Both the position numbers and the translations under genes were made by a program. Below the pieces are notes generated by a model. That model saw only the letters and a list, made by a program, of their open reading frames with translations, was not told the DNA's origin and searched no databases. A stretch of 64,000 nucleotides of DNA from Verrucomicrobiota bacterium (GTDB taxonomy: Bacteria; Verrucomicrobiota; Verrucomicrobiia; Opitutales; Puniceicoccaceae): contig JBCDMB010000007.1 in the NCBI GenBank assembly GCA_038744685.1, positions 1 through 64,000 on the forward strand, written 5' to 3'. Below are positions 10,937-53,282 of this stretch, in pieces; within the stretch, counting starts at the first letter, position 1, and the number at the start of each line of letters is the position of its first letter.

Positions 10937-11428
10937 CTAAAATGCTTCCTTGATGCGCCCAATCATAGCGGAAGTGCTAAATCCTTCGAGAAAAGGAACG
11001 AAGACGATGCTTGAACCCACCTCCTCAAATGCCGCTCGTTCCGATTTGTCCAAACTTTCCAGCGTGTAGTCTCCCGCCTTTACGTAAATGTCCGGTCGTA
11101 TGATTCGAATTTCTTCAGTCAGTCTCATTTCAGGAAAGACGAACACCTCCGCAACAAATGAGAACGCCCGAAGGAGGTAAGCACGCTCAGACTCAGAAAG
11201 GATCGGACGTTTATCGCCTTTTAGAGCACGGACACTCCCATCGCCGTTGATTCCGATCCAGAGCTCGTCTCCCATAGCAGCCGCTTCCTTCAGGTAGGAC
11301 ACGTGCCCCGGATGGACGAGGTCAAAACAACCATTGGTAAAAACCAGTGTCTTCCCATCCGCACGCAGTCGCTTTCGTCTCTCAACAAGATCGGCGGCGA
11401 GAGGGGGAGTGGGCAGAGACGGGTTCAT
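10937..11428 (-). CDS. rfaE2: RfaE2, D-glycero-beta-D-manno-heptose-1-phosphate adenylyltransferase
   Basis: A cytidylyltransferase-fold enzyme that makes ADP-heptose, the donor for the LPS inner core. At 163 residues it is the stand-alone C-terminal half of HldE. TNGCFDLVHPGHVSYL at about residues 30-45 contains the HxGH nucleotide-binding motif, and KAGDYT occurs in the C-terminal part as in the family. No RfaD or RfaE1 gene lies in the window. The upstream spacer to dnaJ carries two kinds of repeat (11435-11462 and 11503-11602). Function fits with waaA, kdsB and the glycosyltransferase fusion elsewhere in the window. Confidence 0.9.
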   Translation of the reverse strand: MNPSLPTPPLAADLVERRKRLRADGKTLVFTNGCFDLVHPGHVSYLKEAAAMGDELWIGINGDGSVRALKGDKRPILSESERAYLLRAFSFVAEVFVFPEMRLTEEIRIIRPDIYVKAGDYTLESLDKSERAAFEEVGSSIVFVPFLEGFSTSAMIGRIKEAF

Positions 11429-13547: not shown

Positions 13548-14855
13548 CTAATTTATAGCCCCTAATTGTTTTAGAATCAGATTGGCCGTCCGCTCGACTG
13601 AACCGCGGTTCTCTCGGTGCCAGGCAAGGGATGCGGCAGACATAGACGCACGTTTCTCGGGATTGAGTGCTAGTTCAACCAGAGTGGTCTCCACCTCACC
13701 TTCATCCTCCGCGCGAAGTGCTCCGCCTCGCTTCTCCAAACCGCTACAAGCAGCTTTAAAATTTGTCATTTGGGGACCGTATACGATCGGTTTGCCTAGG
13801 GCAGCAGCTTCAATGGGAGTTTGGCCACCGTCACTAGGTGGCAAGCTTTTCCCGACAAAAACAAGATCCGACAACGCAGTAAAGCTCTGTAGCTCTCCGG
13901 TCGTATCAGCAAGATAGACTCGGTCCCCACTTTTACAAGGGCCATCTACGCTGCGGACGGACGCAGACAGTCCGAGGTTCTCGATCTCCGCGATTACCCC
14001 GGCCCTTTTCTCAGCATGACGCGGCACGATGACGAGTCGTAAATCGAGCCCTCTGCTCGCAAGAACCTGGTAGGCTTTGACCAACGGAGTCGCCTCACCC
14101 GGCCACGTCGACGAACCAAGGAGAATCAACGGAGGCTTGACCGACAGCTCCGATACGAGACCGAGCTCTCTTAGTTCAGAGAGTCGCTTTTCGGGATTCG
14201 GAAGCTCAATCACATCGACGTCGAATTTCAGGTTTCCAAAGACCTCAACTGGAATCGTGCCCTCGAGGAGCTCATCAAAACGCTCAGCATCCTCCTTTGA
14301 GCCGGCACATACCTTGGTGACTCCTCGAAAAGGAAATCGTCCGAGGCTTCCTGCCTTCTGATAACGCCGGAAGGATCTGTCCGACAACCGCGCGTTGATC
14401 AGATAGACCGGGACGCCTCTCTTTTTTGCCTGATGGAGGTGCTCCGGCCAAAGCTCGCCTTCCATGAGGATGCAAAGATCGGGTCGGAACCGCTTCCAAA
14501 CTTTTGCACTCACCGGCCAGAGATCCACCGGAAAGTAGGCAAGAAAATCGGCTCCAATGTTCTTCTCACGGGCAATTGCGAAACCGGTGCTCGTGGTCGT
14601 AGTAAGGACTACCTGAAGATTCTGGTTTCTCTCTTTGAGGAGTTTGATTACTGGCTGAATCGCCAAAATTTCACCGACACTAACCGCTTGGATCCAAACG
14701 ACTCTACCACCTTCTTTCCGATTGAAGGAGGGGGGGAATCCCAGGCGATCGGCGAATCTCTCTCCGTAACCTCCGCGTTTGAGGATTCGCTTCAGGTAGA
14801 AAGGCAGGCCTACGATCAGCGCGAAGGGAAAGAGTAGGCGGTAGAGCCAAATCAT
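13548..14855 (-). CDS. waaA: WaaA (KdtA), Kdo transferase
   Basis: Transfers 3-deoxy-D-manno-octulosonic acid from CMP-Kdo to lipid A; a GT30-family inner-membrane protein of 435 residues. An N-terminal membrane anchor (about residues 1-20) is followed by WIQAVSVGEILA, the GT-B acceptor-side motif with the catalytic Glu. The C-terminal half has LGSSTWPGEATPLVKAY, VPRHAEKR and VGKSLPPSDGGQTPIEAA, all typical. Its ATG overlaps the dapA stop by 4 bp. Together with kdsB and rfaE2 it shows a conventional Kdo/heptose LPS core. Confidence 0.94.
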   Translation of the reverse strand: MIWLYRLLFPFALIVGLPFYLKRILKRGGYGERFADRLGFPPSFNRKEGGRVVWIQAVSVGEILAIQPVIKLLKERNQNLQVVLTTTTSTGFAIAREKNIGADFLAYFPVDLWPVSAKVWKRFRPDLCILMEGELWPEHLHQAKKRGVPVYLINARLSDRSFRRYQKAGSLGRFPFRGVTKVCAGSKEDAERFDELLEGTIPVEVFGNLKFDVDVIELPNPEKRLSELRELGLVSELSVKPPLILLGSSTWPGEATPLVKAYQVLASRGLDLRLVIVPRHAEKRAGVIAEIENLGLSASVRSVDGPCKSGDRVYLADTTGELQSFTALSDLVFVGKSLPPSDGGQTPIEAAALGKPIVYGPQMTNFKAACSGLEKRGGALRAEDEGEVETTLVELALNPEKRASMSAASLAWHRENRGSVERTANLILKQLGAIN

Positions 14856-44664: not shown

Positions 44665-45135
44665 ATGGAAGAAGGAACGGAGCAAAAAACAGCCGAAACG
44701 AAAAAGGTGTCCCGACGGCACTTGAATCGTGTCGCCGCGATGCAGTTTCTTTATCTCTTTGAATCCAATCGCGAAGAAAACCTGAATGATCTGGTCCTCA
44801 GTTTTTTCGATCACCAGGAGAAAGACCGCGAGTATTACGCTTTTGGGGAGGAGCTCATACAGGGAACAATTGAGAACCTCCCAGAGATCGATGAGAAGAT
44901 TCAGTCGACGGCAAACAATTGGACTCTGGATCGGATCGCTCGGGTGGACCTCGCGATTCTAAGAGTGGCGTGTTTCGAGTTGCTTCATCGCCCGGATGTT
45001 CCGCCGGTTGTCTCAATTAACGAAGCGATTGATCTGGGCAAAGAGTATTCAAATGAGGAAAGTAGGCGGTTTCTCAACGGTATCCTTGACCGGATGTCCA
45101 AGGAGCTGCATCGGCCGCTAAGGGATGCCGAGTAA
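44665..45135 (+). CDS. nusB: NusB, transcription antitermination factor
   Basis: 156 residues. NusB binds BoxA RNA with NusE/S10 in antitermination and rRNA transcription. SRRHLNRVAAMQFLYLFE is the helical N-terminus and NEAIDLGKEYSNEESRRFLNGILDR the family C-terminal signature. The start at 44665 is used although the frame reads back into the upstream repeat. The last codons overlap the ftsY start at 45125. Confidence 0.9.
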   Translation: MEEGTEQKTAETKKVSRRHLNRVAAMQFLYLFESNREENLNDLVLSFFDHQEKDREYYAFGEELIQGTIENLPEIDEKIQSTANNWTLDRIARVDLAILRVACFELLHRPDVPPVVSINEAIDLGKEYSNEESRRFLNGILDRMSKELHRPLRDAE

Positions 45136-46075
45136 TCCTATGACTTCAGGAAAACCGAGTCTGTTCCAGCGGTTTCGGAAAGGTCTTCAGCGAACAACCG
45201 AAGGCTTTACGGAAAAAGTTGGCGGTGTCTTTAGTCGGGCCAAAATAGACGATGATGACATCGACCTCATCGAGGAAACCCTTTTTTCTGCCGACTTTGG
45301 TGTGGAGACTACCGAGGAAGTTGTTGAAGCAATCCGTAAAGGATATCGTAAAAACAAGGATCTGCGTGGAAAGGAGGCAGCGGAAATCGGTTCGCGCATC
45401 CTCGAAGAAGTCCTCGTCGGCTCAGAAGGCACCTTTTACCCTCACGAGCCCCACCCTTCGGTGATCGCACTCGTCGGGGTCAATGGCTCTGGAAAAACCA
45501 CGACTTCGGCAAAGCTAGCGTGGCATTACAAGCAGTCGGGCCACTCGGTTTTGGTCGGAGCCTGCGACACTTTTCGCGCAGCCGCCAATGAACAACTCAA
45601 AGTTTGGAGTGGTCGTCTAGGGATTGACGTGGTCGAAAGCCATCAAGGTGCCGATCCTGCTGCAGTAGCCTTTGATAGCTTTAGCGCCGCTGAGAAACGC
45701 GACACTGACCTTCTCGTTCTAGACACCGCTGGGCGCCTTCACACGAAATCGAATCTAATGGAGGAACTGAAGAAAGTGCGGCGAGTCTTGGACAAGAAGA
45801 GACCTGGATCACCCGAAGAGCGATGGCTGGTCATCGACGGCAGCCATGGGAGCAACTCCGTTCAGCAGGCACGAATCTTTCATGAAGCGTTTGATTTAAC
45901 CGGGATAGTCATCACCAAGCTCGATGGCACGAGTCGAGGCGGCGGGCTTGTGGGCATCTATCGTGAGCTAAAATTACCGATACAATTCGTGGGTTTGGGA
46001 GAGCAGCCAGAAGATCTTCAACGTTTTTCAGCCAAAGACTACGCAGAGGCTGTATTTGGTGTACAATCGGAATAG
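45125..46075 (+). CDS. ftsY: FtsY, signal recognition particle receptor
   Basis: GTPase that docks SRP-ribosome complexes at the membrane; 316 residues. It lacks the long acidic A-domain of E. coli FtsY and begins almost directly with the N domain. G1 is GVNGSGKTTTSAKLA, G2 CDTFRAAANEQL, G3 DTAGR, G4 TKLDGTSRGG. RFRKGLQRT near the N-terminus may serve as a lipid-binding helix. The start is 45125 or 45140 (MTSGKPSLF), both close to the nusB stop. Confidence 0.94.
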   Translation: MPSNPMTSGKPSLFQRFRKGLQRTTEGFTEKVGGVFSRAKIDDDDIDLIEETLFSADFGVETTEEVVEAIRKGYRKNKDLRGKEAAEIGSRILEEVLVGSEGTFYPHEPHPSVIALVGVNGSGKTTTSAKLAWHYKQSGHSVLVGACDTFRAAANEQLKVWSGRLGIDVVESHQGADPAAVAFDSFSAAEKRDTDLLVLDTAGRLHTKSNLMEELKKVRRVLDKKRPGSPEERWLVIDGSHGSNSVQQARIFHEAFDLTGIVITKLDGTSRGGGLVGIYRELKLPIQFVGLGEQPEDLQRFSAKDYAEAVFGVQSE

Positions 46076-46081
46076 GCACCC

Positions 46082-47986
46082 ATGCCCACCCTACTCCGTG
46101 GACTCTCGTTTCTAGTAGGCATTCTTCCGGAGTTTTGTCTTCGTGGCGTGTGCGTTGGACTGGGTGCTATTCTTTTTCGAATCCCTTCCAAACGTCGCAT
46201 CGTTCTCTCAAACCTTGCCCACGTTTTTCCTGATCGGGATCCCAAGATCCTTAAAAAGATCGCTCGGATCAACTGCTCCCGTACCATCGAGATGGGCCTG
46301 TTCGCCCTCGCCTCTCCTCGGTTTGGAGAAAAAGAGATTCGGGCGCGCCTCCAGTTTTCCGATGACTTTCAAGAGCGTTACCAATCCGTCCTCGAAGAAG
46401 GGAAACCTGCCCTCATTCTTCTACCGCACAACTATTTGATCGAACTGATCGTCTTCGCCCCGATGCTGGTTGGCTTACCAAATGGGAAAGTCGCTGCCCT
46501 TTTTCGGCCGATCAATCAGAAGAAGATCGACGATTGGGTGCTCAAAACCCGCGAAAGAGGTGGTATCAAACTCCTTTCCCGAAGCAGCGGTGCCGAAACC
46601 GGTATTCGTCACCTACGTGGCGGAGGGCACCTCGCTATTCTAGCAGACCAAGGTGCGGGTGATTCGGGAGTTCTGGGAAAAGTGGCCGGAAGGACAGCTT
46701 CACTGACGCCGCTACCTGACATAATTGCGAAGAGGTTGTCGGTTCTACCCGTCTTTGTTTCTATTGAAAGAACCGGATTCTTTCGAGGTAAAGTGCACTT
46801 GGAAATTCCACGTGACGACCAAAGAGAACCTTCCGCCTCATTCGCTGTATGGCTTTCCAATAAATTGATTCACGAAAAAGGTTGGAACACCAATTGGCTT
46901 TGGCTCCATCGTCGCTGGAAGACCCAGAGAACTCCGCAACGTCGCCTTCGGTTGGAGATGCGGCGGGGAACCTCCAGTGATTTCGAGCCGCGGGAGGAGG
47001 ATCTCTCTCGGGCAGACCGAGTCTATTTACGCCTTCCCAACTGGCTTGGTGATATCGTGATGGTCGCCCCTCTCATTCGAGCGATTCGTAAGGGGCGTCC
47101 GGATGTCCGTCTCACCCTCGTCTTCCGTCCGCACTTCACCCCATTGATTGGACTGTTAGACCTTCCTTACGATGACCTCCTTCCCGCGGACAGTAAAAAT
47201 GTGGTCGGGAGGGAACTCCTCCGCTTCCGTCAGTTTGAATATCCAGATACGGCAATACTGTTTACTAATTCATTTCGCGGTGACCGGGAAATGAGGATGG
47301 TTGGCGCCGAACAGCGATTTGGTATTCTTCGTAGGGGAAACCGAAGACCGTTACTCACCGACACCTGGATGCCACCCGAAACCCTCAAAGAAGAATCAAT
47401 CCACCAAACGGATTGGTGGCATTTGTTTCTCAGCCATTTTGGCCTGAAGGAGCCGGCGGATCGAAGTCCAATCAAAAGCTCTAAAGAAAACCGCGAGAAC
47501 CGCATAGCGCTCTTTTGTGGATCAGAGAACAGTCCAGAGAAGCGATGGCCCGTAGAAAGATGGGTTACCTTAACAAACGCTCTCTTGGAAAGGGACGAGG
47601 ACTTGCAAATCGATCTGCACGGTACTGGTGGCGACCAGCCCATCACCTCCTCGGTTGCGGCCAACTGTAAATCTGACCGAATAAGTAACCTCGCGGGCTC
47701 AACCGATTTAGCCGAGCTAGGAACCTATCTCCAACGAAGCCATCTCGCAATCGGAAACGATACGGGAGGAATGCACTTGGCGAACGCTCTTGGCTGCCCT
47801 ACTGCGGTTCTTTTTGGCCCTACCAACCCTGTAAGAACGCGGCCAATTTTTGACGCTCCCTTATCGGTCATTCAGGCACCGGATGCAAAACAGACCGGAG
47901 GCGGCACCATGGACGCCATATCGGTCGATCAAGTTTTGGAGGGAGTTAAAGAGTTAATGAAGATTCATCCGGAGCGGCTGCTTTAG
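46082..47986 (+). CDS. Fusion: LpxL-type lipid A acyltransferase + GT9 heptosyltransferase-like domain
   Basis: 634 residues in two parts. Residues 1-285 match the LpxL/HtrB lysophospholipid acyltransferase family, with a membrane-proximal N-terminus, the catalytic HX4E (His116-Glu121 in PHNYLIE) and WLWLHRRWK at the end of the domain. Residues 312-630 are glycosyltransferase family 9: LRLPNWLGDIVMVAPLIRAIR, then NDTGGMHLANALGCPTAVLFGPTNP. Both halves act on LPS lipid A/core in other bacteria, so a membrane-associated bifunctional enzyme is plausible. The join is a short basic linker. It follows ftsY by 6 bp. Confidence 0.88.
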   Translation: MPTLLRGLSFLVGILPEFCLRGVCVGLGAILFRIPSKRRIVLSNLAHVFPDRDPKILKKIARINCSRTIEMGLFALASPRFGEKEIRARLQFSDDFQERYQSVLEEGKPALILLPHNYLIELIVFAPMLVGLPNGKVAALFRPINQKKIDDWVLKTRERGGIKLLSRSSGAETGIRHLRGGGHLAILADQGAGDSGVLGKVAGRTASLTPLPDIIAKRLSVLPVFVSIERTGFFRGKVHLEIPRDDQREPSASFAVWLSNKLIHEKGWNTNWLWLHRRWKTQRTPQRRLRLEMRRGTSSDFEPREEDLSRADRVYLRLPNWLGDIVMVAPLIRAIRKGRPDVRLTLVFRPHFTPLIGLLDLPYDDLLPADSKNVVGRELLRFRQFEYPDTAILFTNSFRGDREMRMVGAEQRFGILRRGNRRPLLTDTWMPPETLKEESIHQTDWWHLFLSHFGLKEPADRSPIKSSKENRENRIALFCGSENSPEKRWPVERWVTLTNALLERDEDLQIDLHGTGGDQPITSSVAANCKSDRISNLAGSTDLAELGTYLQRSHLAIGNDTGGMHLANALGCPTAVLFGPTNPVRTRPIFDAPLSVIQAPDAKQTGGGTMDAISVDQVLEGVKELMKIHPERLL

Positions 47987-50232: not shown

Positions 50233-51870
50233 CTATTCTCTTTTCAATTCAGTCGGATGAAACCCATGGGTCGCGTATTCTTTCGCGAGACGAAGTCGGT
50301 GGATCTTTGCATTGTGACGGATATCTACTGGAAAATCCTTCCGGAAGAAGAAATGGCGAATCGAAGCGGTCATCGGGGTTTCCGATCCTAATTTCTTTAG
50401 TTCGACCACCCAGTTGCCTATTTCATCCTCATTTTTTGGGAAACAACCCTTCTCAGGCTGAACCACGATACCCGGCACCCGTTTGTTTCTCGAACCTAAA
50501 CCTACTAATGCGGAACGGTAGACCTTTGGATGACGGTTAAAGACCTGCTCGCAGCACTCCGGGTAGTACGCTTTCCCTTCCCGAGTCGTCACCCTTTCAG
50601 CCACCCGCCCACAGAACCAAATGCGACCGGCTTCGTCTTTATATCCAAGATCCCCCATACGATGCCAAACCGTTTCACCCGCGTTGACCTTCGCATTCCT
50701 CGTCGCCTCCTCGAGCCGATCATACTCTCTCGTGACCATCGGACCAGACACCACAATCTCCCCGATCTCATGAGGCGATAGTTCCTGTAAGTGTTCCTCG
50801 ACCATCGGACCTTCTTGAACGCTAGCGATGCGGACGTTCACTCCATCGAGAGGACTGCCTACACAGACACCCTTCCCTTCTTCCGTCAGTTCCGCAACCT
50901 CCAGAATCATATCCCCGTCAATGGCCGTCATCGGTAAGGCCTCCGTCGCACCATAAGGACTGTAGATGTCGGCGTTAGGCACAAGTGGACTCAACTTTTT
51001 GATCAGCGATGGTGACACTGCAGCCCCAGCAGCCAATACTCGGCGGAGAGAAGGAATCGATCGGTTTGAACGTGCTCCCTCGGTAGCGATTAGATTCCAG
51101 AGCACAGGCGAGCCAAAACTGTTCGTCACCCCGGCCTCGTTCATCACGGCAATTTGCAGCCCTGGGTCAGCCTTCGCTGGTCGGCTGGGATTCATCGGAG
51201 GGACCACGGTAGTCATCCCGAGAGCTGGATTGAACAATGCAAAAACCGGCAACATCGGAAAGTCCACCTCTCCCGGCTCGATTGAGAAACGTTCCCTTAC
51301 TGCGGCGATTTGCGCCTGAAACATCCCGTGTTCGTAACAAACCCCTTTGGCCGGTCCTGTGGAGCCTGAGGTGAAGAGGATGGCAGCGAGATCATTTGGA
51401 GCAGTATCCGCTGGTTCAAAGCCTCTACTACCGTCAGCCTCCTCCGTTCTGGTAATTAGATTCGTAGAGAAACGCGCACGGACACGATGGAACGACTTAG
51501 AGAAAACCCGTGAAATCATCAGTCCCTTGGGAATTCCAAACACCGCCTCGGGTTCGGATCGTTTGACGCAGGAAAGAAAACTCCGCAGACCCATTCCGGG
51601 ATCAATCACAACTGGGACTGCCCCCACCCGCAGAATCGCAAAGACTCCGCAAATCAGCTCCAGACCCGGTTTTGCCAGAACGATGGTTCGGGTGCCCTTC
51701 CCTACTCCTTTCTCCAAGAAATGTGCGGCAAGACCAGCGACCAGACAATGCAACTCGGCAAATGTCGTATCTCTGAATCCAATCCTCCTCCCGGTGACGT
51801 TCGGGATTCGAACCGCCAGCACCTCCGGAGCCTTTTCGGCCCTTTTGGCAACGTATCCCGCAATATTCAT
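50233..51870 (-). CDS. OleC-like AMP-dependent ligase
   Basis: 545 residues of the adenylate-forming superfamily. The nucleotide loop is ILFTSGSTGPAKG; DPGMG near residue 91 and CGRVAERVTTREGKAYYPE with FNRHPKVYRSALVGLG are typical of OleC, which makes a beta-lactone from a beta-hydroxy acid in olefin synthesis. OleA, OleB and OleD are not near, so an olefin role is not supported. It starts 8 bp after kdsB ends and may be translated with it. Fatty acyl-CoA ligase activity is the alternative. Confidence 0.75.
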   Translation of the reverse strand: MNIAGYVAKRAEKAPEVLAVRIPNVTGRRIGFRDTTFAELHCLVAGLAAHFLEKGVGKGTRTIVLAKPGLELICGVFAILRVGAVPVVIDPGMGLRSFLSCVKRSEPEAVFGIPKGLMISRVFSKSFHRVRARFSTNLITRTEEADGSRGFEPADTAPNDLAAILFTSGSTGPAKGVCYEHGMFQAQIAAVRERFSIEPGEVDFPMLPVFALFNPALGMTTVVPPMNPSRPAKADPGLQIAVMNEAGVTNSFGSPVLWNLIATEGARSNRSIPSLRRVLAAGAAVSPSLIKKLSPLVPNADIYSPYGATEALPMTAIDGDMILEVAELTEEGKGVCVGSPLDGVNVRIASVQEGPMVEEHLQELSPHEIGEIVVSGPMVTREYDRLEEATRNAKVNAGETVWHRMGDLGYKDEAGRIWFCGRVAERVTTREGKAYYPECCEQVFNRHPKVYRSALVGLGSRNKRVPGIVVQPEKGCFPKNEDEIGNWVVELKKLGSETPMTASIRHFFFRKDFPVDIRHNAKIHRLRLAKEYATHGFHPTELKRE

Positions 51871-51878
51871 TGAACGTC

Positions 51879-52649
51879 CTAAGTCGAGCGGGCATCGAGA
51901 GCCCGTTCGAGACGCACAAGATCCTCCGGCGTATCCACTCCGATCGTACTTTCTTCTGTAACCCCTACTTTAATCTCGATCCCGTTCTCCAGCACTCGCA
52001 GCTGCTCCAATCGTTCGATCCGTTCAAGGGGCGAGGGTTTTAAATCGACAAACCTTTCAAGAAAACGACCTTGGTAGCCATAAAGACCGAGATGCCCGAA
52101 CACCTTGATCGTCTCGAGCCGTTCCTTGGTCGGATAACCCTTGCTCTCACGATCCCATGGGATGGGTGCCCGTGAAAAGTAGAGAGCCCGGCCTTGCTGA
52201 TCCATGACTACCTTTACCTGACTCGGGTCATTGATGCGCGCAGGATCGGTTAGGCGAACGGCCAAGGTGCTCATCCCGGCACTCGAATCCAAGAGAGAAA
52301 AGAGTTCTGCGATCTGTCTTCCCGAAACCAACGGTTCATCCGCCTGTACATTCACCACTTGGTCTGCCAAAATTTCGCGGTTCGCGTAAGCGATCCGATC
52401 CGTCCCACTTGCAAGGTCCGGATCGGTCATCACACAAGAATAACCCTCCGACTCCAGAACCGATTTCAACTCCTCTTCAGCTATAGCGAAAAAGACCGGG
52501 GTTTCGGGGGCGACCGCCTTCACCTGCCTTGCTGTATGAAGAATCAGCGGCTCCCCCTGGACCGGGTGAAGCAACTTTCGTGGGAACCGAATCGACTGGA
52601 GACGAGCCGGAACAATAATGGCTTTCGGGATCGACACTCCTTTCAGCAT
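51879..52649 (-). CDS. kdsB: KdsB, CMP-Kdo synthetase
   Basis: Activates Kdo with CTP for WaaA; 256 residues. PARLQSIRFPRKLL is the nucleotide loop (usual PAR..S.RLP.K), QVNVQADEPL-like VVNVQADEPLV carries the Mg-binding Asp, and GHLGLYGYQ and PSPLERIERLEQLR are later family blocks. The start at 52649 is an ATG followed by AAAGGAG. It leads a two-gene unit with the OleC-like ligase. Confidence 0.93.
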   Translation of the reverse strand: MLKGVSIPKAIIVPARLQSIRFPRKLLHPVQGEPLILHTARQVKAVAPETPVFFAIAEEELKSVLESEGYSCVMTDPDLASGTDRIAYANREILADQVVNVQADEPLVSGRQIAELFSLLDSSAGMSTLAVRLTDPARINDPSQVKVVMDQQGRALYFSRAPIPWDRESKGYPTKERLETIKVFGHLGLYGYQGRFLERFVDLKPSPLERIERLEQLRVLENGIEIKVGVTEESTIGVDTPEDLVRLERALDARST

Positions 52650-52833
52650 CCAATGGGTGCTCGATGGGTCAACGGGATATTCGACGCTAAATGGACCGCG
52701 AAGACTTGGGTTATCCTAGAAAAGAGGCTTGTGGAGGGACAGCGGCCTTCCCGGACTGAGCCTGTCGAATGGCGATGTCCGCTGAAGCGCATTGTTAACC
52801 TACTCTCAGCACTTAAAACAAACCCCCTGGACT

Positions 52834-52869
52834 CGATTTCGATTTGGATTTCGATAGCGATTTCGAGTT
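52834..52869. repeat. Degenerate hexamer tandem repeat (CGATTT family)
   Basis: Six 6-nt units: CGATTT, CGATTT, GGATTT, CGATAG, CGATTT, CGAGTT. It lies in the 273-bp spacer between the divergent kdsB and the ArsC/Spx gene, which holds no recognised gene. About 100 bp upstream, GTGGAGGGACAGCGGCC and CGGACTGAGCCTGTCGAA also look like repeat words. Confidence 0.55.
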
Positions 52870-52922
52870 TTTTCCGCTCAATTGGCTCGCCAACCGAGGT
52901 GCTCGTCCAGACCCTCGGTTTG

Positions 52923-53282
52923 ATGCTAAAGATTTACACCTACAAGAAGTGCAGCACCTGCCGTAAAGCTACTAAGTTCCTTCAGGATCGCCAAATCGAC
53001 TTTGAGGAGCTACCCATTCGCGAGACTCCGCCGAGTACCAAAGAACTGGAAAGGATGCTCGATGTAAAAGAGGGCAAAATGACCAAAATCCTCAATACCT
53101 CCAGCCAGGATTACCGGGACAGCGGGTGGAAAGATACGCTGACGAACATGAAACCATCTGAAGTATTCGCAGCCCTTCAGAAAAACGGAAATCTCGTGAA
53201 GCGGCCCTTTCTTCTCGGCAAGGACATCGCTCTGGTTGGATTCGACGAGGCGGAATGGGAGGAGTCGTTAGATTCCTCTTAA
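52923..53282 (+). CDS. ArsC/Spx family thioredoxin-fold protein
   Basis: 119 residues beginning MLKIYTYKKCSTCRKA. The CxxC motif (CSTC) makes it like Spx/MgsR or YffB, while LVKRPFLLGKDIALVGFDE is the closing ArsC-family block. It could be an arsenate reductase-like enzyme or a thiol-stress regulator; no ars genes are near. The frame is open from 52359 but the upstream part is antisense to kdsB and is discarded. Confidence 0.85.
   Translation: MLKIYTYKKCSTCRKATKFLQDRQIDFEELPIRETPPSTKELERMLDVKEGKMTKILNTSSQDYRDSGWKDTLTNMKPSEVFAALQKNGNLVKRPFLLGKDIALVGFDEAEWEESLDSS

Follow-up and report, generated by a model that had tools for sequence, protein, structure and literature searches.

Why should two steps of lipopolysaccharide (LPS) assembly that are carried out by separate proteins in E. 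coli be tied into one enzyme, and what becomes of such a protein when one of its tasks disappears? The question is raised by a gene in a 64,000-nucleotide stretch of DNA from a Verrucomicrobiota bacterium (contig JBCDMB010000007.1; the whole stretch is called the window here), a member of a group with a little-studied envelope biochemistry. The gene joins an acyltransferase (AT) to a glycosyltransferase of family GT9. From sequence comparisons, we think it likely that its product is a bifunctional inner-membrane LPS enzyme, made of an LpxL-like AT and a WaaF-like heptosyltransferase, whose fusion would have had a single origin and been inherited vertically, with repeated decay of the GT9 domain.

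One frame, two enzyme domains

A preliminary description of the gene had claimed a 634-residue frame with an HX4E motif at 116-121, a WLWLHRRWK segment closing the first domain, and a complete GT9 domain behind it. All of these lie where it placed them (Table 1), and both Pfam domains were found; a search for a stop or frameshift between the domains found none in the ATG-started frame. The PF01075 profile (residues 471-590, E 3.4e-23, 82.7 bits against a cut-off of 22) covers only the C-terminal half of the GT9 domain, and the N-terminal half was delimited by alignment to WaaF, the structure model and Foldseek. In the 634-residue fusion protein, LPNWLGDIVMVAPLIRAIR begins at residue 318 and NDTGGMHLANALGCPTAV at residue 559. 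Alignment to WaaF places D324, K487 and D560 at the catalytic Asp, the phosphate-binding Lys and the NDSG-type motif, which we take to be the functional roles of these GT9 residues.

Table 1. Features of the fusion gene and related genes in the window
Feature	Position	Strand	Basis or remark
ADP-heptose pathway adenylyltransferase, HldE domain II-like	10937..11428	-	TIGR02199, 154 bits; below cut-off 181.5
WaaA-like Kdo transferase	13548..14855	-	in the same window
ftsY	45125..46075	+	TIGR00064, 307 bits; ends 6 bases 5' of fusion gene
Fused AT-GT9 gene	46082..47986	+	single open frame, ATG start, 634 aa, no internal stop
Lipid A acyltransferase domain (PF03279), residues 8-281	46103..46924	+	Pfam E 4.9e-24, 85.5 bits against cut-off 22.3; Foldseek to LpxM 5knk/5kn7, PatA
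HX4E catalytic motif H116-N-Y-L-I-E121	46427..46444	+	read in translation
WLWLHRRWK motif closing AT domain, residues 272-280	46895..46921	+	read in translation
Interdomain linker, residues 282-310	46925..47011	+	pLDDT minimum of the model at 298-301
GT9 N-terminal (acceptor-side) Rossmann half, residues 311-468	47012..47485	+	sequence comparison, model, Foldseek
LPNWLGD (318-324) with D324	47033..47053	+	D324 is the counterpart of D13 in E. coli WaaF (1psw alignment)
R339-P340-D341	47096..47104	+	R339/D341 persist in half and decayed forms; seldom present in standalone GT9s
GT9 C-terminal (sugar-nucleotide side) half, residues 469-628	47486..47965	+	Pfam and alignment to WaaF
K487 of EKRWP	47540..47542	+	alignment to WaaF
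NDTGGMH (559-565) with D560	47756..47776	+	alignment to WaaF
kdsB, CMP-Kdo synthetase	51879..52649	-	TIGR00466, 193 bits, over cut-off

An AlphaFold model built from 12 aligned fusion proteins is a confident two-domain structure (pLDDT 87.7, pTM 0.88), the confidence being low in the linker near 298-301. In a Foldseek search of the PDB, E. coli WaaF (1psw) came first (9e-19; 346 columns aligned, target TM-score 0.81), followed by another GT9 structure (3tov) and WaaC; the AT part matched LpxM (5knk and 5kn7, at about 1e-10) and mycobacterial PatA. Chains of plant chloroplast NDH-PSI complexes (9grx_1, 7f9o_6, 7wff_a) also appear among the matches, with E from 7e-12 to 3e-7 across about 360 columns.

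The AT domain belongs to PF03279 by its score over the cut-off and by its H116/E121 dyad of the HX4D/E type. Since it does not reach the NCBIfam equivalog cut-offs for LpxL/LpxM (best NF006270, 68.6 against 248; TIGR02207, 50.4 against 297.8), we call it LpxL-like rather than LpxL. We infer from its family that it is an LpxL-type late lipid A acyltransferase; the reaction that would mark it as LpxL is acylation of Kdo2-lipid IVA at the 2' chain. The GT9 domain belongs to PF01075 by a profile score over the cut-off and by its two-Rossmann GT-B fold. Its closest NCBIfam model, and the best of the whole fusion protein, is the WaaF equivalog TIGR02195, at 80.5 bits below the cut-off of 134.6, so that we call the domain WaaF-like rather than WaaF.

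Genomic setting

In the window, nusB precedes ftsY, which precedes the fusion gene, and ftsY and the fusion gene are probably co-transcribed. The 154-bit score of the HldE domain II (HldE-II) gene falls in the high mode of the order's score distribution, which is bimodal (at least 129 bits against about 101 or less). In its own genome (3.64 Mb, 97.8% complete), the fusion is the sole PF03279 protein. The same genome has three further GT9 matches, and a standalone WaaC-like GT9 gene (L004) lies on another contig than the fusion. Elsewhere in the window, an AMP-dependent ligase (50233-51870, minus strand) has strong but sub-cut-off scores for OleC (olefin beta-lactone synthetase) and is over the cut-off for NF006754, and a 307-residue frame (52359-53282, plus strand) has an Spx/ArsC domain only in residues of about 189-302, its true start being probably internal.

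The architecture recurs across the order and the class

The search by taxon called for in the preliminary description found the two-domain architecture in many independent genomes of the order and the class. Of the 52 relatives searched, which all belong to the order, 50 have a match to the fusion protein at E<=0.001; in about 30, the match is near full length. In a wider set of 273 genomes of the order, PF03279 is present in 228, and 176 are hit by the fusion query at E<=1e-30. A survey of 387 genomes of the phylum gave 54 matching genomes at the same threshold, of which 17 belong to other families of the same class and 2, from the same phylum, match the GT9 part only. Named relatives are Opitutales, Opitutia, Opitutae and Puniceicoccales MAGs.

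From the 176 matching genomes of the order, we classified 142 complete frames. Left out were 24 matching genomes, many of them of one genus (g21 of family f20) and with E-values like that of the tail-less frame described below; two in which the AT was absent from the stretch examined (G036, G063); and nine frames that were contig-cut or split or did not resemble the fusion type (G017, G168, G084, G148, G167, G077, G098, G108 and G131; G084 is a genome added from the PF03279 survey of the order).

In 15 of the 17 class-level genomes, the AT and both GT9 halves lie in one frame; one of the others (G515) has a 484-residue frame without the C-half, and the other (G587) runs into a contig end. Because the class-level GT part could not be aligned by adding rows at fixed length, pattern matching was used to read its motifs, which gave the Asp motif in 11/17 copies, and the Lys and NDxG motifs in 15/15 full-length copies. 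HldE-II reaches at least 160 bits in 16 of the 17 genomes, G561 being the exception.

This recurrence also bears on whether the frame could be an assembly or frameshift artefact joining two genes, an idea to which we assign a negligible probability. One genome (G017; L032 151-1056 and 986-2089) does have its AT and GT9 in overlapping different frames, through fission or a sequencing frameshift. Against it, the order holds 94 frames with intact GT9 and other families of the class hold 15 full-length fusions, single-contig genomes included; the recurrence of a single-frame architecture in independent genomes refutes the artefact.

Tails behind ATs of other groups were considered and set aside. 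The idea that the tail of chlamydial LpxL (NF004569, model length 454) is a half-GT9 gained no support in the one genome of the chlamydial phylum examined (Simkaniaceae, L136), whose tail behind the AT has no GT9-half match. Short AT tails in family f14 (L101, L131, L132) have no GT9 match either, and their ATs fall among the standalone ATs.

A single grouping and repeated decay

In the AT tree, the 142 fusion-type ATs all lie on one side of a 99-supported branch, apart from 35 standalone ATs, and a horizontal patchwork of the AT is thus unsupported. On the same tree, the intact label for the GT9 domain requires 20 changes and the half label 13; well-supported branches force at least 9 and at least 6 of these, respectively. 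The single grouping and these counts point to one fusion followed by repeated GT9 decay as the simplest history, the unrooted count being one that cannot separate gain from loss. The fusion would predate the diversification of the order, with a probable origin at class level.

In the GT9 tree, the fused domains form one clade (SH-aLRT 99) inside a set (support 98) that includes E. coli WaaF; the second domain thus groups with the heptosyltransferases, on the WaaF side, and not with unrelated sugar transferases. The standalone WaaC-like gene of the same genome and the neighbouring GT9s of relatives join E. coli WaaC at 83, a weak grouping, and long branches call for caution in both trees.

GT9 is a family of mixed specificity. 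An active GT9 domain might therefore act on another residue or position, as a heptosyltransferase I-like enzyme or with a non-heptose sugar, next to an AT as proposed. The scores below the WaaC and WaaF equivalog cut-offs and the long branches behind the WaaF-side placement are compatible with this. We nevertheless regard it as improbable: WaaF is the best match in both sequence and structure, a separate WaaC-like GT9 exists, and the catalytic residues decay together with the loss of HldE-II and WaaC-like genes.

GT9 decay tracks the loss of an ADP-heptose synthesis gene

The GT9 state was classed by the residues at positions 324, 487 and 560 of the window protein and by the presence of the C-half. 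Of the 142 frames, 94 are intact, 26 are full-length but decayed, 21 keep the N-terminal half only (about 440-540 residues), and 1 (G022) has no tail. The AT motif is indifferent to this state: H..E is found in 139/142 frames, the others having H..D, D..E and Q..E, one each. The last two (L033 in G049, D..E, and L205 in G110, Q..E; both family f8) have lost the AT His with a near-intact or intact GT9, and both genomes have other PF03279 matches.

HldE-II is present in 86 and absent from 8 genomes with an intact GT9, against 7 and 41 with a non-intact one (Fisher 2e-20, n=142). The pattern holds in genomes at least 90% complete (66/2 against 6/27) and after collapsing to genus (38/2 against 7/19). 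Because relatedness inflates Fisher values, we added Pagel and independent-pair tests. Pagel's test on the AT-domain tree gave an LR of 39.7 (p 5e-8, n=142), and 34.1 (p 7e-7) in the 101 genomes at least 90% complete. The independent pairs on well-supported branches (9) gave means of 4.6 in the same direction, 0.0 in the opposite direction and 4.3 without difference; their sign test alone is not significant (median p 0.0625, and 0.25 in genomes at least 90% complete), and their agreement with co-loss of the GT9 residues and HldE-II is suggestive. Among the 8 intact exceptions without HldE-II, several are incomplete MAGs; G034, however, is a single contig with 97% completeness.

A WaaC-like GT9 was sought in the 52 relatives with a threshold of at least 296 bits (next best match, 122), 39 of these genomes having a classified frame. 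It is present with 21 of 24 intact fusions (22 counting a contig-edge piece in G048) and with 3 of 15 non-intact ones. Counting G048, HldE-II and the WaaC-like gene are both present in 20/24 intact against 1/15 non-intact cases (p 5e-6). Where an intact fusion and a WaaC-like gene occur together (21 genomes), the two are no more than about 2 kb apart in 12. Three genomes with a non-intact GT9 (G003, G005, G007) have kept HldE-II and lack the WaaC-like gene. The GT9 catalytic residues track both the ADP-heptose synthesis gene HldE-II and the WaaC-like gene, mostly being kept where these are present and decaying where they are lost.

One of these three, G003, belongs to a sister genus in the family of the window organism, and its GT9 (L090 1923-3752, minus strand) is full-length but catalytically degenerate. 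Such a close case invites the idea that the window protein's GT9 is itself already non-catalytic, a structural or lipid-binding module only. This seems very unlikely to us, as the window protein keeps D324, K487 and D560 with their surrounding motifs, HldE-II and the WaaC-like gene are both present in its genome, and both same-genus relatives have an intact GT9.

What the decayed copies retain

The AT motif survives in decayed copies, and so, usually, does the N-terminal half of GT9. Residues N320, W321, G323, D324 and M327, near-invariant in intact forms, are nearly gone in half forms. In contrast, the share of forms that retain R339 is 98% for intact, 100% for decayed and 100% for half forms, against 3% of 65 standalone GT9s; for D341 it is 98%, 96% and 95%, against 26%. 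RPD is found in all 11 class-level copies where the motif is readable. On the AT side, W272 and W279 are almost invariant in fusion-type ATs and occur in 12% and 21% of standalone ATs.

Pairwise dN/dS, obtained by a simple counting method in three unsaturated pairs (most other pairs are saturated), is 0.29 and 0.10 for two parts of the decayed tail in G010-G088, 0.28 and 0.23 in G043-G118, and 0.32 for the half forms of G047-G075. By this measure, the decayed and half tails of the three pairs (0.10-0.32) are under purifying selection.

These values weigh on the view that we are looking at a merely convenient gene fusion, with two uncoupled enzymes in one chain and a tail that persists after decay by drift alone. 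LPS gene fusions have precedent in the phylum, as in the partial text of PMC3087551 for lpxC/fabZ, and tail loss does occur, in G022. Drift, however, fits poorly with purifying selection on the decayed tails and with the retention of R339/D341 by 95-100% of the decayed and half forms, from which other GT9 motifs have gone, and we judge this view unlikely.

Retention of the half-GT9 instead suggests a second, non-catalytic role of the N-half. It is possible, if somewhat short of an even chance, that this acceptor-side half is now a working part of the AT, probably as a lipid A/Kdo-positioning or interdomain-packing module using R339-x-D341. If so, most lineages would have discarded the catalytic residues, and often the whole C-half, after the loss of heptosylation, yet kept the N-half under selection. 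The surviving tails thus offer a testable case of an enzyme half turned accessory domain.

A model for the fusion protein

In the bifunctional enzyme that we propose, the LpxL-type N-terminal domain would use a Kdo-lipid A precursor as acceptor of a secondary acyl chain, and the WaaF-like C-terminal GT9 would transfer heptose from ADP-heptose to an inner core begun by a separate WaaC-like enzyme. Both reactions would take place on the same lipid at the cytoplasmic side of the inner membrane, so that they could occur in one encounter with one protein. The architecture, the catalytic residues, the single grouping and the co-loss with HldE-II and WaaC-like genes are observed; we infer the reactions, their acceptor, the order of the steps, the membrane side, and the coupling or channelling of the two sites. 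The fusion would have arisen once and passed vertically, the GT9 domain decaying repeatedly after loss of heptose synthesis or of the WaaC-like enzyme. Because the sugar half has decayed many times in step with an ADP-heptose synthesis gene, it amounts to a natural experiment that predicts which of these species have heptose-containing LPS.

Comparison with known systems

Our search of the open-access literature found no description of an AT-GT9 fusion; domain databases may well show the architecture. Heptose is reported in Akkermansia LOS (available parts of PMC13135019 and PMC12527988), and the latter names a candidate secondary acyltransferase that is 23.7% identical to LpxL. A parallel in kind is the lpxC/fabZ fusion reported in Verrucomicrobia, likewise two lipid-pathway genes joined but with other enzymes and steps; the available part of that source (PMC3087551) mentions no LpxL fusion.

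With LpxL/LpxM, the AT domain shares the PF03279 profile, HX4E, the conserved R142, D189-Q190 and W274-x-H276, and an LpxM-like fold, whereas it carries a C-terminal GT9, and its W272 and W279 are rare in standalone ATs. With WaaF, the GT9 domain shares the 1psw fold, the D13-, K- and NDSG-type motifs and its tree placement, but has a membrane-type acyltransferase in cis and an R339-x-D341 that is rare in standalone GT9s.

The same two families stand side by side in Acidobacteria/Vicinamibacterales and a Woeseiaceae MAG, where an AT and a WaaF-side GT9 are neighbouring genes (L047, L054, L078 and others). A fusion in Acidobacteria is ruled out, as the two genes adjoin there but stay separate. 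In these three loci and similar ones, a further GT9 lies about 2-3 kb downstream. The two stop-to-stop frames of the L134 pair overlap by 4 bases, and such pairs are unfused, unlike the gene in the window, in which both families share one frame.
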